Assembly: GCF_900188175.1 (NCBI RefSeq) | Contig: NZ_FZOQ01000003.1 | Coordinates: 1-64,000, forward strand | DNA from: Pontibacter ummariensis | GTDB taxonomy: Bacteria; Bacteroidota; Bacteroidia; Cytophagales; Hymenobacteraceae | Direction of reading: 5' to 3' | DNA length: 64,000 nucleotides | Shown here: positions 45,137-59,214 of the stretch, in pieces | Numbering within the stretch: position 1 is the stretch's first letter | How the letters are laid out: every line of letters begins with the position of its first letter | Notes under the pieces: generated by a model | Told to the model about the DNA's origin: nothing | What the model saw: the letters and a program-made list of their open reading frames with translations, nothing else | Database searches by the model: none | Position numbers and translations under genes: made by a program

Positions 45137-45508
45137 TTATGTTACGAGGTTTGGCTTGTTTATACTGAAATGAAAGACAAGAGCACCCAGCGCATAGGCT
45201 AAAATGTCCCAGGCATCGGCTGTATAGCGCGAAGAGAACAAGGGCAATAAACCTTCAAACACCAGGCTAAAAAGCAGTACAGCCAGCAAGACGTACTGCC
45301 ACGGCAATACAAAGCCTGAATCCTGAAAGTATAGCCGCTCAGCCGCCAGCACAATAGTTAGCGACACAGGCAGGCAGAGCAGGTTATCCAGGTAAGCATG
45401 CAGGGGCCAGAGATAGCGGTTCGACAGCTCCAGCAACTGGTTCAGGCAGAACAGCAGCAAACTAACCAGGAAAACAGGGTGGCGCAGGGTTTGAAGGCCC
45501 GGTATCAT
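45137..45508 (-). CDS. Four-helix membrane protein, function unknown
   Basis: The 123-aa product is almost entirely hydrophobic, with about four transmembrane segments and a conserved-looking LWPLHAYLDNLLCLP turn and a C-terminal SRYTADAWDILAYALGALVF segment. Homologues in Hymenobacteraceae are variously called magnesium-citrate secondary transporter, but nothing here proves transport; the terminal segment recalls VanZ-like proteins. It overlaps the zinc-ribbon gene by 4 bp, so they are co-translated. Confidence 0.65.
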   Translation of the reverse strand: MIPGLQTLRHPVFLVSLLLFCLNQLLELSNRYLWPLHAYLDNLLCLPVSLTIVLAAERLYFQDSGFVLPWQYVLLAVLLFSLVFEGLLPLFSSRYTADAWDILAYALGALVFHFSINKPNLVT

Positions 45509-45717
45509 ACAGCCACTAATCCTACTAAGAGCATAATAGTACCCAGCACGATCAGAAAGATCTCCCCGGCCGTTAAGTCCGAAAAGTTAAACTTCCACTC
45601 CTTTTCAGGCTGGGGCAGGTATTCGCCGCAATAAGGGCACCGTTTATCGGACGCGGGTACTAGCCGCTTGCAGTTTGGGCAGGTTATAAGTTGCTCGTTT
45701 GTGTCTTCGCTTGCCAA
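45505..45717 (-). CDS. Zinc-ribbon membrane protein, 70 aa
   Basis: The 70-aa product has a two-knuckle zinc ribbon (CPNCKRLVPASDKRCPYCGE, Cys 13, 16, 28 and 31) followed by an amphipathic stretch and one C-terminal transmembrane helix (about 50-68). It resembles small membrane-tethered zinc-ribbon proteins. It overlaps the following four-helix gene by 4 bp, suggesting a joint function. Confidence 0.75.
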   Translation of the reverse strand: MASEDTNEQLITCPNCKRLVPASDKRCPYCGEYLPQPEKEWKFNFSDLTAGEIFLIVLGTIMLLVGLVAV

Positions 45718-45758: not shown

Positions 45759-47339
45759 CTACCTGTCTTTTTTGGTAGTAATAAGCACAGCCCCGTTAGC
45801 CCCATCCGCTCCGAAGGCAGCAACGGCCTGAGGCTCCTGGAGCACCTCCATGCTTTCTATGTCATCAGGGGACAGGGTCAGGAGTTCTTCCGGCATATTT
45901 GCCTTGTCGCCATGCCCTACTTTTACGCCGTCCACCACGTACAGGGGCTGTCCAGAAGCGTTCTCTGAACTGCTGTCTGCTCCTTGCTCAAGCCCTCCGC
46001 CTTCCCGGGCCTCGTTCTGGCGGGCAATCTCACTGGCTTTGCCATTGCGCAGGCCCTGTAAGTAATAGTTGATAGCCTGCAGCAACTGTTGCTGTTCCGG
46101 ATTCAGGAGCGGGCGTTCATGCAACAGGTCATCCCGCAGCATTTCAAAAGACTTTTTGCGCAGGCGCACATAATCCAGCAGTACGCTTACTTTATCGCGC
46201 TGCTCTCCCTCCACGTCATCTATGCCTTCCAGCAGCTGCTCACTCTCCTCCCACAGTACGATCCCTTGCGCCAGCGGCTGTTCAAAATCTGTCGCCTTTG
46301 CCTGCTCCCCCTCTTTTGCCAATGCCTGCATCACCTGCATGGCCTGTTCTTCTTTTTGCCCCACCTGATCCAGCACGTAAGCAAAACGTGCTTCCCCCGT
46401 AAGCGGGATCTGCATGTAAAACAGCAGCAGAAACACAACCCCAGCTCCCGCCATCAATGCATTTCCTACTACACTATAGCTTTGGGTGATTTGCCTGCGG
46501 GATCGGAACATCAGCACCGCTCCTAAAACCGCACCAGCTAGTAGTCCGCCGCTGTGAGCGGCATTGTCGATCCCCTCCTGCATGCCATAGCCCAGGTTCA
46601 TGGCAATGATAAAGGCCATGTTCAGCAACATCGCTTTTTTCTCTTGCCAGGACATCCGCCGCTCTAACAGGAGCACAACGAGCAACATGCCGAACATGCC
46701 AAAGATGGCCCCGGAGGCTCCCACTCCTACCCGCGTGCTCTCCCACCACAGGCTTGCCAGGCTACCAGCCAGCCCACAAAGCACATACACAATCAGGAAA
46801 GGGACTCGCCCCACGAGGGGCTCCAACTGTCGCCCAATAGATACCAGCGCCAGCGTATTGAACAGCAGGTGCAGGATGCCGCCATGTAAAAAAGTGCAGG
46901 TAAGTAAGCGCCACCACTCACCTGACAGGGTCAGTGGGCCAAAGTTGGCCCCCAGGACTATCAAACTGCCAACTTCGGGGCTAAGTGGGTTAACACCGGC
47001 CATTACCATCACAAGGAACACAGCCAGGTTAATGTTCAGCAAAATAGGAGTCACGTAATAGTGAGGCTGGGGCACAAAGACCTGCAGGAAGCCTTTCACC
47101 TTTTCAAAGAAAGAGAGCGGTTCAGCGGCTTCCTCAGCTGCAGGCACCGGCTGCTCTTCCAGTCTTTGCGTTACTTCTGACCGCAACTGCTCCAGATCCG
47201 GAACAGGAAGCCCCCTCTTTTGTGCTTCATCTACAACAGCAAGTATCGCTTCCTCTTCGTATTTGCCGTACTCCTGCAGTATCTCGATCAACTGCCCGTC
47301 TTCTTTTTCAGCTACAACAGCTGCGTATTTGTTTTCCAT
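45759..47339 (-). CDS. Rhomboid protease fused to a TonB-plug-like C-terminal domain
   Basis: From the ATG at 47339 the product is 526 aa (an in-frame start at 47474 is less likely). Parts in order: cytoplasmic N-terminus (1-95); rhomboid domain (about 96-280) with FLHGGILHLLFN, catalytic Ser209 in GASGAIFG and His262 in NAAHSGG; a seventh transmembrane helix (about 292-312); a helical region with no recognised domain (315-460). The last 62 residues (465-526) read like a TonB-receptor plug: PLYVVDGVKV, then SPDDIESMEVLQEP, then AAFGADGANGAVLITTK. With seven helices the tail should be periplasmic. Rhomboids cleave membrane-embedded substrates. Confidence 0.85.
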   Translation of the reverse strand: MENKYAAVVAEKEDGQLIEILQEYGKYEEEAILAVVDEAQKRGLPVPDLEQLRSEVTQRLEEQPVPAAEEAAEPLSFFEKVKGFLQVFVPQPHYYVTPILLNINLAVFLVMVMAGVNPLSPEVGSLIVLGANFGPLTLSGEWWRLLTCTFLHGGILHLLFNTLALVSIGRQLEPLVGRVPFLIVYVLCGLAGSLASLWWESTRVGVGASGAIFGMFGMLLVVLLLERRMSWQEKKAMLLNMAFIIAMNLGYGMQEGIDNAAHSGGLLAGAVLGAVLMFRSRRQITQSYSVVGNALMAGAGVVFLLLFYMQIPLTGEARFAYVLDQVGQKEEQAMQVMQALAKEGEQAKATDFEQPLAQGIVLWEESEQLLEGIDDVEGEQRDKVSVLLDYVRLRKKSFEMLRDDLLHERPLLNPEQQQLLQAINYYLQGLRNGKASEIARQNEAREGGGLEQGADSSSENASGQPLYVVDGVKVGHGDKANMPEELLTLSPDDIESMEVLQEPQAVAAFGADGANGAVLITTKKDR

Positions 47340-49086: not shown

Positions 49087-51429
49087 ATGAGATTACCATT
49101 CGTAAAGGGCTACGTAGGGCTACTCCTGCTATGCTTGCTTGCCCTTCCTTCCCTGGCGCAGGAGAAAGTCACTTTGAGCGGCTACGTGAAAGACGGCTCC
49201 TCGGGCGAGGGGCTGATCGGGGCCTCGGTGAGCGTGCAGGAGCTGCCGGGCGTGGGCGTGGGCACCAACGAGTACGGCTTCTACTCCCTGACCCTGCCCA
49301 AGGGCTCCTACACCCTACTCTACAGCTACCTGGGCTACGTCACCCTCTCTAAGGAAGTGGTGCTTGCCGCCGGCCAGAAGCTGGACGCGGAGCTGAGCCA
49401 GAACGCCACCGCCCTCCAGGAAGTGGAGATCTCCACCCGCAAGGAGGACGAGAACGTGCGCTCGATGGAGATGAGCACCCTGAAGATGCAGGTGGCCGAG
49501 ATCAAGGGCATGCCGGCCCTCTTGGGCGAGGTCGACATCGTGAAGGCTATCCAGATGACGCCGGGCGTGCAGACAGCTGGCGAGGGTACCTCCGGCTTCT
49601 ACGTGCGCGGCGGCGGGGTGGACCAGAACCTCATCCTCCTGGACGAGGCCCCGGTCTACAACGCCTCTCACCTGATGGGCTTCTTCTCCGTCTTCAACGC
49701 CGACGCCATCAAGGACGTGCAGCTCTACAAGGGGGGCATCCCGGCCCAGCACGGCGGCAGGCTCTCCTCTCTGCTCGACATCAGGATGAAGGAGGGCAAC
49801 AGCAAGAAGCTGGCCGTCTCGGGCGGCATCGGTACTATCTCCAGCCGCCTGACGGTAGAGGCTCCGATCATCGAGGACAAGAGCTCCTTTATCCTCTCGG
49901 GCCGCAGGACCTACGCCGACGTGTTCTTCGGGCTGAGCGGCGACGAGAACATCAAGGACAACCAGCTCTACTTCTACGACCTCAACGCCAAGGTCAACTA
50001 CACTTTAAACGAGAAGAACAGGCTATTCGTGTCGGGCTACTTCGGCCGCGACATGGCCGGCAGCAAGAGCTTTATGATGGACTGGGGCAACGCCACGGCC
50101 ACCCTGCGCTGGAACCACCTCTTTAGTGACAGGCTCTTTAGTAACACCACCCTCATCTTCTCTGACTTCGACTACGCCCTGGGCTCCAGAGAGAAGGAGT
50201 CGGAGTTCACCTGGAAGTCCCGCATCCGCGACTATGGCCTCAAGAACGACTACACCTACTTTTTAAGCCCCAACAGCCAGCTGCGCTTCGGCCTGCAGGC
50301 CACCTACCACAACTTCATGCCTGCTGAGGTAAAGCCGGGGCCGGAGTCCTACGTCAACAACCTTAAGCTCAACTCCACCAGCGCCCTGGAGGGGGCCCTG
50401 TACCTGAGCAACGAGCACCGGATAACAGACCGCCTGACGCTGGACTACGGCCTGCGCCTCTCCAGCTTCACCAACATGGGGCCGGGCAAGGTGTATACCT
50501 ACGACGAGGCCTTCGAGACACCCATTGACACACTGGAGTACGGAAGGTTCGAGAAGATCAAAAGCTACGGGGGGCTGGAGCCGCGCCTCTCTGCCAAGTA
50601 CGAGCTCAACGACATGAGCTCCATCAAGGCTTCCTATAACCGCACTTTACAGTACCTGCACTTGGTGTCTAACTCCACCTCCTCGCTACCCTTCGACGTG
50701 TGGATCCCGAGCAGCACCTACGTGAAGCCCCAGGTGGCAGACCAGGTGGCGGCCGGCTACTTTCGAAATTTTAAGGACAACACCTATGAGGGCTCCGTGG
50801 AGGTCTACTACAAGTGGATGGACAACCAGATCGACTACAAGGACTACGCGGAGATCTTCCTCAACGAGCGCCTGGAGACAGAGCTTCTGACAGGGACAGG
50901 TGAAGCCTACGGGGCCGAATTCTACCTCCGCAAGCAGAAGGGACTTCTGACGGGCTGGGTGAGCTACACGCTGGCTAAGACTGAGCGCACGGTGCCAGGC
51001 ATCAACGGAGGGAAGGCTTACCCGCTGCGCTACGACCGCCGCCACTCGGGCAACCTGGTGCTGGCCTACCAGTTCAGCCCGAGCATCAGCCTGGGGGCCA
51101 GCTGGACCTATGCCACGGGCGGAGCCATCACCATGCCGGTGGGCCGCTACGAGTACAACGGCAAGACTTACCCGGTGTACTCGGAGCGCAACGGCTACCG
51201 CCTGCCCGACTACCACCGCCTGGACCTGTCGGCCACCTATGAGAAGCCGAAAAACGAGTTCAAGAAGTACAACAGCAGCTGGACGCTCTCTGTCTACAAC
51301 GCCTACAACCGTAAGAACGCCTTCTCGATTTACTTCCGCGAAAGCGAGGACGACAGAACGAGAACAGAGGCCGTGAAGACCTACCTGTTCGGCATTATCC
51401 CCTCCCTCTCCTACAACTTCAACTTCTAA
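49087..51429 (+). CDS. TonB-dependent receptor with carboxypeptidase-like domain
   Basis: The 780-aa outer-membrane receptor has a signal peptide (1-24) and a CarboxypepD-regulatory-like beta domain (about 27-105, VTLSGYVKDGSSGEGLIGASV). A plug follows (about 130-230, with FYVRGGGVDQNLILLDEAPVYN cut by Gly-rich turns and AQHGGRLSSLLDIR), then a 22-strand-type barrel ending in YNFNF. It imports an unknown ligand with TonB energy. Third codon positions are strikingly C/G-biased compared with neighbours. It is followed 21 bp later by a DUF4249 lipoprotein. Confidence 0.92.
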   Translation: MRLPFVKGYVGLLLLCLLALPSLAQEKVTLSGYVKDGSSGEGLIGASVSVQELPGVGVGTNEYGFYSLTLPKGSYTLLYSYLGYVTLSKEVVLAAGQKLDAELSQNATALQEVEISTRKEDENVRSMEMSTLKMQVAEIKGMPALLGEVDIVKAIQMTPGVQTAGEGTSGFYVRGGGVDQNLILLDEAPVYNASHLMGFFSVFNADAIKDVQLYKGGIPAQHGGRLSSLLDIRMKEGNSKKLAVSGGIGTISSRLTVEAPIIEDKSSFILSGRRTYADVFFGLSGDENIKDNQLYFYDLNAKVNYTLNEKNRLFVSGYFGRDMAGSKSFMMDWGNATATLRWNHLFSDRLFSNTTLIFSDFDYALGSREKESEFTWKSRIRDYGLKNDYTYFLSPNSQLRFGLQATYHNFMPAEVKPGPESYVNNLKLNSTSALEGALYLSNEHRITDRLTLDYGLRLSSFTNMGPGKVYTYDEAFETPIDTLEYGRFEKIKSYGGLEPRLSAKYELNDMSSIKASYNRTLQYLHLVSNSTSSLPFDVWIPSSTYVKPQVADQVAAGYFRNFKDNTYEGSVEVYYKWMDNQIDYKDYAEIFLNERLETELLTGTGEAYGAEFYLRKQKGLLTGWVSYTLAKTERTVPGINGGKAYPLRYDRRHSGNLVLAYQFSPSISLGASWTYATGGAITMPVGRYEYNGKTYPVYSERNGYRLPDYHRLDLSATYEKPKNEFKKYNSSWTLSVYNAYNRKNAFSIYFRESEDDRTRTEAVKTYLFGIIPSLSYNFNF

Positions 51430-51450: not shown

Positions 51451-52248
51451 ATGAACAAGACATTTCTGTATTTGCTGGCCATGCTAGTCTTAGGCCTGAC
51501 CAGCTGTGAGGAGGTAATCGACTACGAGCTGGACACAGCTGAGACGAAGCTGGTGGTGGAAGGCCTGATTACTGACCAGCCGGGGCCCTACCAGGTGAGG
51601 CTCTCCAACACGAAAGGCTACCTGGATGAGGGAAGGACGCCGGGGGTGAACGGGGCGCTGGTCATCGTCTCCGACAACAAGGGGACAGTAGATACCCTGG
51701 AGCAAATAAGCGAGGGCGTTTACCAGACCACCAAGCTGCAGGGCCAGGCGGGCAACACCTACTTCCTGAGGGCTGTGGTGAGCGGCAAGGAGTACACCGC
51801 CCAGAGCTTTATGCCAGCTGTTACTCCCATTGACTCCCTGACCTTCGTGTACAAGCACTCGGCAGACGAGGATGACGACGGATACCACCCTTACATTCAT
51901 TTCCGTGACCCGGCGGGCCGGGGCAACTACTACCGCTGGAACGTGTTCATAAACGGGGTGCTGGCCCCGGACGAGCTGGTGGTGCTCAACGATGACCTGT
52001 ACGACGGCAACTACGGCCACGCCGACATGGGTTTCGCCCTGAAGAAGGGAGACAAACTGAAAGCGGAGCTCTACGCTGTGGACAAGCCGGCCTACGAGTT
52101 CTGGACGGCGCTGGTAAACCAGCAGAACAGCAGCGGTGGTCCCTTTGAGAGTACACCGGCCAATGCCCCAACCAACATCAGCAACGGGGCCATCGGCTAC
52201 TTCGGTGCCTCTGCCGTATCGGCAATGGAAGCAGAAGTAAAAGAATAA
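51451..52248 (+). CDS. DUF4249 lipoprotein, receptor partner
   Basis: The 265-aa product has a lipoprotein signal with Cys at about 19 (GLTSCEE) followed by the DUF4249 pattern: LVVEGLITDQPGPYQVRLS and a first Ig-like beta domain, then a FWTALVNQQNSSGGPFES segment with a C-terminal GYFGASAVS. DUF4249 proteins accompany TonB-dependent receptors as surface lipoproteins, probably binding the ligand. It shares the receptor's C/G-biased codon use and ends at a terminator. Confidence 0.88.
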   Translation: MNKTFLYLLAMLVLGLTSCEEVIDYELDTAETKLVVEGLITDQPGPYQVRLSNTKGYLDEGRTPGVNGALVIVSDNKGTVDTLEQISEGVYQTTKLQGQAGNTYFLRAVVSGKEYTAQSFMPAVTPIDSLTFVYKHSADEDDDGYHPYIHFRDPAGRGNYYRWNVFINGVLAPDELVVLNDDLYDGNYGHADMGFALKKGDKLKAELYAVDKPAYEFWTALVNQQNSSGGPFESTPANAPTNISNGAIGYFGASAVSAMEAEVKE

Positions 52249-58590: not shown

Positions 58591-59214
58591 TTAAAATAAG
58601 CTCCAGTTACTGATCTGCTCGAAGAAGAGTGGCAAAGCCCGTGGCACCAGCACAATGCTCAACAGAAAGCCATAAACCGCCCCATACAAGTGCGCATCGT
58701 GGTTAATGTTGTCGCCCATGCGCTTCCCGGAGAAGTAAGAGTACATGATGTACAGCACGCCCAGGATAAAGCCCGGAATACAGAGCAGGCCATAAAGGCA
58801 GATGTCCTGAGTAGGATAAAACAAAATGCTGGAGAACACGACAGAAGATACCCCCCCGGATGCACCCAGGGCCCTGTAAGGCGGATCGTTGCGGTGTTTG
58901 AGGAAGGTAGGAATATCCGATACAATAATGCCGCCTAGGTAAATAAGCAGGAACAGCAGGATTCCCGTCAGGGGGCCAAACACGTAGATAAAGGTTTGCT
59001 CCACCGCCTGCCCGAAAAAGTAAAACGTGAACATGTTAAAAAGCAGGTGCGTGAAATCAGCGTGCAGAAAGCCGGAAGTAATAAAGCGGTACCACGAGTT
59101 ATCGCGCTGTACAGCGTATGGCTGAAAGATCCACTTGTGCATCAGGCTCTCGTTTTGCCACGCGTACAGCGAAATACCTACTGTAATAATGATAAGGATG
59201 ATGGTAACGCTCAT
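58591..59214 (-). CDS. Rhomboid-family intramembrane serine protease
   Basis: The 207-aa protein is a plain six-helix rhomboid. It has WYRFITSGFLHADFTHLLFN (41-60), the catalytic Ser119 in GASGGVSS and His175 in the NHDAHLYGAVYG helix. It would cleave membrane substrates at the outer leaflet. It is a second rhomboid beside the large fused one at 45.8 kb. Confidence 0.9.
   Translation of the reverse strand: MSVTIILIIITVGISLYAWQNESLMHKWIFQPYAVQRDNSWYRFITSGFLHADFTHLLFNMFTFYFFGQAVEQTFIYVFGPLTGILLFLLIYLGGIIVSDIPTFLKHRNDPPYRALGASGGVSSVVFSSILFYPTQDICLYGLLCIPGFILGVLYIMYSYFSGKRMGDNINHDAHLYGAVYGFLLSIVLVPRALPLFFEQISNWSLF

Follow-up and report, generated by a model that had tools for sequence, protein, structure and literature searches.

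For most bacterial rhomboids, neither a natural substrate nor a regulator is known to date. The described rhomboids closest to the protein analyzed here are GlpG, Rhom7, and YqgP, which share with it the core helices and the catalytic serine and histidine, whereas the present protein adds a seventh helix, a helical region, and a C-terminal tail related to half of a receptor plug (hereafter, half-plug). YqgP offers a precedent for extramembrane control of a rhomboid (PMC7231995), and the removal of orphan membrane proteins by bacterial rhomboids has been described (PMC7232013). The second point of comparison is the SusC/RagA receptors (TIGR04056; PDB 6SLI, 8YPT, and 5FQ6): in alignments, the tail corresponds to the second half of the receptor plug, whereas the fusion, which has neither a barrel nor the first plug half, carries the tail on a rhomboid. 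No description of a rhomboid/half-plug fusion was found in the open-access literature, the body of work covered by the search, nor did this search turn up a paper on plug domains in M56 (BlaR1-type) peptidases. Term searches of the available text of a 2025 rhomboid review (PMC12615303) returned neither "TonB" nor "plug", and those of the available text of a 2025 paper on TonB/TolA evolution (PMC12204202) returned neither "rhomboid" nor "M56".

The fusion is encoded in the window, a stretch of 64,000 nucleotides from Pontibacter ummariensis, on the minus strand from 47339 to 45759 (Table 1). The plus-strand translation of this interval is interrupted by stops, and its reverse complement yields 526 amino acids and a stop, a continuous minus-strand frame at exactly the coordinates given in the initial annotation, with PLYVVDG at residue 465 where that annotation had placed it. 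The start codon is in register with the ortholog starts in the alignment. A frameshift or assembly artefact was rejected, because nothing interrupts the frame and the same fusion is seen in 22 genomes.

Table 1. Coordinates in the window of the fusion gene, the parts of its product, and the two genes next to it
Feature	Coordinates	Strand	Remarks
Rhomboid/half-plug fusion protein, 526 aa	45759..47339	minus	start ATG 47337-47339, stop codon 45759-45761
N-terminal region, residues 1-95, probably cytoplasmic	47055..47339	minus	positive-inside rule
Seven-helix rhomboid region, ~residues 96-308 (Pfam Rhomboid 140-276)	46416..47054	minus	Pfam, hydropathy, invariant residues
Helical region, ~residues 315-432, probably periplasmic	46044..46397	minus	
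Variable linker, residues 433-462	45954..46043	minus	mean pairwise identity 19%, 22 proteins
C-terminal half-plug, residues 456-526	45762..45974	minus	homology to second half of SusC/RagA plugs
Zinc-ribbon protein, 70 aa, one hydrophobic C-terminal stretch	45505..45717	minus	just downstream of fusion
123-aa protein, ~four hydrophobic stretches by eye	45137..45508	minus	no Pfam match

The Pfam Rhomboid profile (PF01694) matched the protein with E=3.3e-35 and 121.8 bits, against a gathering score of 22.6. The catalytic GxSG serine, the TM6 histidine, and the histidine and asparagine of TM2 are all present, and all 22 tailed proteins share S209 (within GASG), H262, H157, and N161 without exception. 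These conserved catalytic residues predict proteolytic activity for what looks like an active rhomboid serine protease of the inner membrane. Its score is far below the NCBIfam equivalog cut-off for GlpG (46.5 of 250 bits) and also below that for rhombosortase (47.6 of 84 bits).

Hydropathy averaged over the 22 tailed proteins revealed the rhomboid helices followed by a seventh hydrophobic stretch that peaks near residue 304, so that the seventh helix predicted in the initial annotation corresponds to a real feature; the tail contains no transmembrane stretch. In the same proteins, the mean number of lysines plus arginines alternates from one loop to the next (2.5 before TM1, 0.2 in TM1-2, 1.8 in TM2-3, 0.8 in TM3-4, 3.8 in TM4-5, 0.5 in TM5-6, and 2.3 in TM6-7). 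Because of this alternation, the positive-inside rule probably places the N-terminus inside and everything after TM7, including the tail, in the periplasm, as had been proposed, and a cytoplasmic tail is disfavored. The 35 residues that follow TM7 are not poor in lysine and arginine (mean 3.8, with 5.9 aspartates plus glutamates), which counts against the periplasmic placement. The predicted architecture is thus probably 6+1, with six core helices, a seventh, and the C-terminal ~215 residues in the periplasm. The helical region, which makes up approximately the first 120 of these residues, is matched by homologous stretches in rhomboids that lack the tail and come from other families of the order and class, and it is old in this rhomboid subfamily. 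Helices in the N-terminal region were seen in a low-confidence model alone; single-sequence AlphaFold, given no alignment, reached a mean pLDDT of 48.1 for the whole protein and 48.4 for the tail alone.

Three kinds of searches connect the tail to receptor plugs. The Pfam Plug profile (PF07715), which the initial annotation had named as the appropriate check, matched residues 456-517 with 25.8 bits, above the gathering cut-off of 23.9, and the match covers only positions 55-107 of the 107 in the profile, that is, the second half of the plug. In NCBIfam, the SusC/RagA model TIGR04056 aligned with residues 457-524 (E=1e-17, 63.8 bits) over profile positions 146-205 of 981 only; a fragment would not be expected to reach the whole-protein cut-off of 368 bits, and this one does not. 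The 31-residue signature TIGR04057 matched the tail at 42.0 bits (E=5.7e-11), slightly below its cut-off of 46.2. Among structures in the PDB, RagA was matched over residues 457-525 by the single sequence (E=4.9e-6), and with a profile of the 22 tails, SusC/RagA receptors came first (best E=8.3e-17). Because the Pfam, NCBIfam, and PDB matches agree, the tail, a module of ~62 residues, is judged to be related to the second half of the SusC/RagA receptor plug, and the proposed union of a rhomboid and a plug-derived tail in one protein holds.

The similarity is also far above noise. Against a profile of the 21 other tails, from which its own was excluded, the tail from the window scored 81.4 bits, compared to a best score of 8.8 bits for shuffled tails (1938 scored rows of 2000 shuffles); when the same profile was run against the 788 stop-to-stop frames of at least 40 residues in the window, this gene alone fell below E=1 (E=9.9e-23). 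Chance similarity was rejected on the strength of the PDB search, the NCBIfam matches, and this shuffle control. The protein shares the plug-profile match of TonB-dependent receptors, yet with the second half alone: the first half, before which a TonB box would lie, is absent from both the Pfam and the TIGR04056 alignments, and the protein stops after the half-plug, with neither a complete plug nor an outer-membrane barrel. The tail from the window is the most receptor-like among the Pfam-scanned rhomboids; the one ortholog scanned with Pfam (L031) scored 13.8 bits for Plug, below the cut-off. At the sequence level, both the plug ancestry of the tail and the architecture of the fusion are secure, but its function is tentative.

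Searches with the full protein drew receptors among the first-look candidates, few of which were scored per genome, and were repeated with residues 1-440. With this query, 28 of the 50 genomes of the genus produced a match at 1e-20, and 22 did not. In 26 of the 28, the match is an ortholog (E at or below 2e-129); the remaining two genomes (G119 and G131) contain a more distant rhomboid only. Of the 26 orthologs, 22 end in the tail and four lack it (G073, G097, G038, and G121). Therefore, neither the tail nor the rhomboid is essential, and the four tail-less orthologs constitute a natural experiment on how extramembrane domains affect a rhomboid. The tail-less ortholog of G121 (L032/L058) contains an in-frame stop near its start and is perhaps a decaying gene. 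A scan of the named genomes found no relative of the rhomboid, the only frame returned (L038) resembling a SusC-type receptor.

A rhomboid tree was constructed from 35 rows, with the tail columns left out and the G121 row represented by its shortened frame. The 26 orthologs form one group (support 100/100), and the fusion is old and vertically inherited in the genus. The history of the tail requires at least four changes on this tree, namely, a single gain and three losses provided that L027, the most basal row, was tail-less from the outset; the fork that separates L027 is weakly supported (84/45), the outgroup branch is long, and one gain with four losses is possible instead. Selection was assessed in nine hand-chosen close pairs, which share members, with ratios calculated by hand. 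In the seven pairs in which tail dS is defined, dN/dS of the tail was 0.07-0.25, whereas the core gave ~0.02-0.08 and the linker 0.12-0.63, and in two of the seven, the value for the tail was not below that for the linker. Mean pairwise identity across the 22 proteins was 45% in the tail versus 19% in the linker. Because its dN/dS is well below 1 yet above that of the core, the tail is judged to be maintained by selection, although under weaker constraint than the core. In all seven pairs with a defined value, tail dS exceeds core dS, which hints at duplication and exchange of tails, with the caveat that 58-61 codons are few. In one relative (L021), the rhomboid stop codon is followed immediately, without a change of frame, by the remnant of a second half-plug (E=1.5e-16), which suggests a tandem duplication of the tail.

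These data bear on whether the tail could be a near-neutral appendage, a C-terminal cap that is easily gained and lost and merely stabilizes the end of the protein. Three or four losses within one genus, evolution faster than that of the core, the two pairs in which dN/dS does not fall below the linker value, and the L021 remnant, with its suggestion that tails are duplicated and shed, all speak for such a cap. A dN/dS well below 1, six tail residues that are invariant across the 22 proteins, and a second independent capture by rhomboids, also probably periplasmic (see below), speak against it, and we consider a near-neutral cap unlikely, while granting it an appreciable chance.

Rhomboids outside this ortholog group were represented by 85 frames, 71 of them with at least 400 residues, which were chiefly long open frames chosen from among the matches rather than all of them; two (L081 and L132) run off the contig at the end. 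A C-terminal half-plug was found in none of the 83 frames with the C-terminus in view. The tails of these proteins differ, consisting of TPR repeats in one case (L080), of MORN repeats and TonB_C in others, and of no recognized domain after the rhomboid in L035. L080 is a rhomboid of ~900 residues with a long TPR array after the protease, and L082 and L087 are of similar length. In two rhomboids from another family of the order (L095 and L096), MORN repeats are followed by TonB_C above the Pfam cut-off; like the fusion, these proteins end in a module derived from the TonB system, which in them is TonB_C in place of the half-plug. TonB_C scored below the Pfam cut-off in the MORN-type rhomboids L099 and L101, and L140 showed no TonB_C match. 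Pfam served as the test for TonB_C, the profile made for TonB_C-like ends being circular. The window itself contains a second rhomboid-like frame (58642-59214, minus strand), which is a distant one (E=0.001, 25% identity).

The survey for further rhomboid-plug fusions suggested in the initial annotation did recover the half-plug elsewhere, at an internal site. In two rhomboids that belong to a different genus within the family, the half-plug lies at approximately residues 190-250, with E-values of 1.6e-15 (L084) and 1.3e-13 (L103) against the tail profile (A2), and a protein from elsewhere in the class (L125) produced a weak match at about the same residues (E=0.007 and 0.0043 in two A2-profile runs). 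The A2 scores alone count, because these three proteins were in the training set of the A3 profile, which renders its scores for them circular. L084 additionally matched TIGR04056 (E=6.6e-11, NCBIfam); with Pfam Plug, it scored 12.5 bits, below the cut-off, and L103 and L125 showed no match. An alignment with seven relatives that lack the insert indicates that the half-plug of L084 and L103 replaces a short loop within a long inter-helix stretch placed in the periplasm by its charges. Because both the rhomboid subfamily and the site differ, this is an independent acquisition, and rhomboids have therefore taken up the half-plug at least two times, both on the probable periplasmic side.

The half-plug extends beyond rhomboids. 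Run against the genome from which the window comes, the tail profile matched 46 places at E up to 10, of which 43 are in frames of 768-1176 residues (receptor-sized by length) and the other three are in the fusion gene itself and a pair of shorter frames (177 and 183 residues). The latter encode small proteins with signal-like N-termini, the first scoring 14.8 bits for Pfam Plug. One small protein of this genome (L147:1826-2317:-) and L222 each have a signal-like start, one half-plug, and perhaps, by eye, a second degenerate copy.

The statement in the initial annotation that plug-like tails occur on M56 peptidases was confirmed. Like the fusion, some M56 (BlaR1-type) peptidases of the order are membrane proteases with a half-plug, internal or C-terminal, although they belong to an unrelated metalloprotease family. 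Thirty M56 loci, taken from 34 matches in 12 genomes, were examined; the half-plug sits on four of them, a lower bound given the 1.5 kb flanks, and on none of the three that come from the window's own genome, within the same flanks. A tail-profile search of five genomes, from which 12 places were picked for reading among the matches listed, yielded two more such peptidases (L216 and L217), L224, L225, L215, four small proteins with signal-like starts, and three receptor-like proteins or receptor fragments. L217 (377-1852, plus strand) carries TonB_C, in a further difference from the fusion, and a C-terminal half-plug scoring 23.2 bits for Plug, slightly under the cut-off of 23.9; the corresponding score was 20.1 bits for another M56 peptidase (L180), and L216 had none. 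L215 is a 214-residue protein with two half-plug copies. L224 (585-6491, plus strand) is of the alpha-2-macroglobulin type, with a carboxypeptidase-regulatory domain followed by a match to Plug profile positions 22-107, which is longer than half, and L225 resembles it by eye. With the second half of the plug present on rhomboids, M56 peptidases, and small secreted proteins, none of them receptors, the half-plug looks like a reusable part, not an accident. Half of a receptor's plug has been reused on two families of membrane proteases and on small secreted proteins, and annotation pipelines may mislabel such proteins as pieces of TonB receptors.

A binding module is the simplest reading of the tail, because it accounts for a part that unrelated membrane proteases have captured repeatedly, that is conserved, and that is nevertheless dispensable. 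The second half of a SusC/RagA plug was captured by a rhomboid as a ~62-residue module that, without the first half and without a barrel, is incapable of plugging. It could instead act in the periplasm, on the active-site side of the membrane, as a binding module (an exosite or a sensor) that delivers a partner or substrate to the active site within the membrane or alters access to it, comparable to the regulation of YqgP by an extramembrane domain. We favor, with moderate confidence, an inner-membrane 6+1 rhomboid in which a periplasmic half-plug binding module recruits a partner or substrate or regulates the protease; that the half-plug binds a partner is our hypothesis.

The initial annotation had instead tied the tail to TonB-dependent uptake, which it would sense or regulate; a direct effect would involve the tail touching TonB or a receptor. 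The plug ancestry of the tail is in line with this proposal, as are the TonB_C ends of other rhomboids (L095 and L096, above the Pfam cut-off) and the joint presence of TonB_C and a half-plug on the M56 peptidase L217. However, the second half of the plug is the only one present, and half-plugs also occur on small secreted proteins without an evident role in uptake. In receptors, the TonB box is N-terminal of the plug, and direct TonB gating by the tail is unlikely because the protein has neither a barrel nor the first plug half. Receptor-like candidates are not more common in genomes with the ortholog: the first-look candidates obtained with the full-length query, mostly receptors, numbered ~27 on average in the 26 genomes with an ortholog versus ~38 in 20 of the 22 without one, these means being crude, calculated by hand, and uncorrected for ancestry. 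The lower number in genomes with the ortholog counts against a role in receptor surveillance. Taken together, the half-plug without a barrel, the small-protein carriers, and the lack of a candidate excess leave the direct tie to TonB-dependent uptake unsupported, and we regard it as rather improbable.

A more novel idea, decidedly doubtful in our assessment, is that the half-plug is a so far unrecognized, autonomous periplasmic domain by which rhomboids and M56 peptidases, two unrelated kinds of membrane protease, watch SusC-type receptors. It would mimic the second half of the plug, pair with the exposed first half in an unassembled or open receptor, and thereby start or stop the cleavage of a partner in the inner membrane.

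The rhomboid might also have its own tail as a substrate or inhibitor, one that is cut or displaced to switch the protease on. The tail is tethered by a variable linker, probably on the active-site side, as this would demand. Known rhomboid substrates are mostly single-pass transmembrane proteins, according to the rhomboid review (PMC12615303), unlike the tail, which has no transmembrane stretch, and four of the 26 natural orthologs do without it, making self-cleavage or self-inhibition highly improbable. A binding module that recruits a partner or controls the protease remains the reading we prefer.

Around the fusion gene, a gene (49087-51429, plus strand) whose product, by eye, resembles a TonB-dependent receptor lies ~1.7 kb away on the opposite strand; its product was not matched by the tail profile. 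Next to it, the frame at 51451-52248 (plus strand) appears, by eye, to encode a lipoprotein-like protein. Directly downstream of the fusion and on the same strand are the genes for a zinc-ribbon protein and a protein with several hydrophobic stretches (Table 1), as the initial annotation had indicated. Within flanks of ~1.5 kb, a homolog of the 123-aa protein was found beside 15 of the 26 orthologs, one of these matches being weak. A zinc-ribbon homolog likewise accompanies 15 of the 26 within such flanks, and as these include three of the four tail-less orthologs, the zinc-ribbon gene does not track the tail and was rejected as a tail-linked partner.
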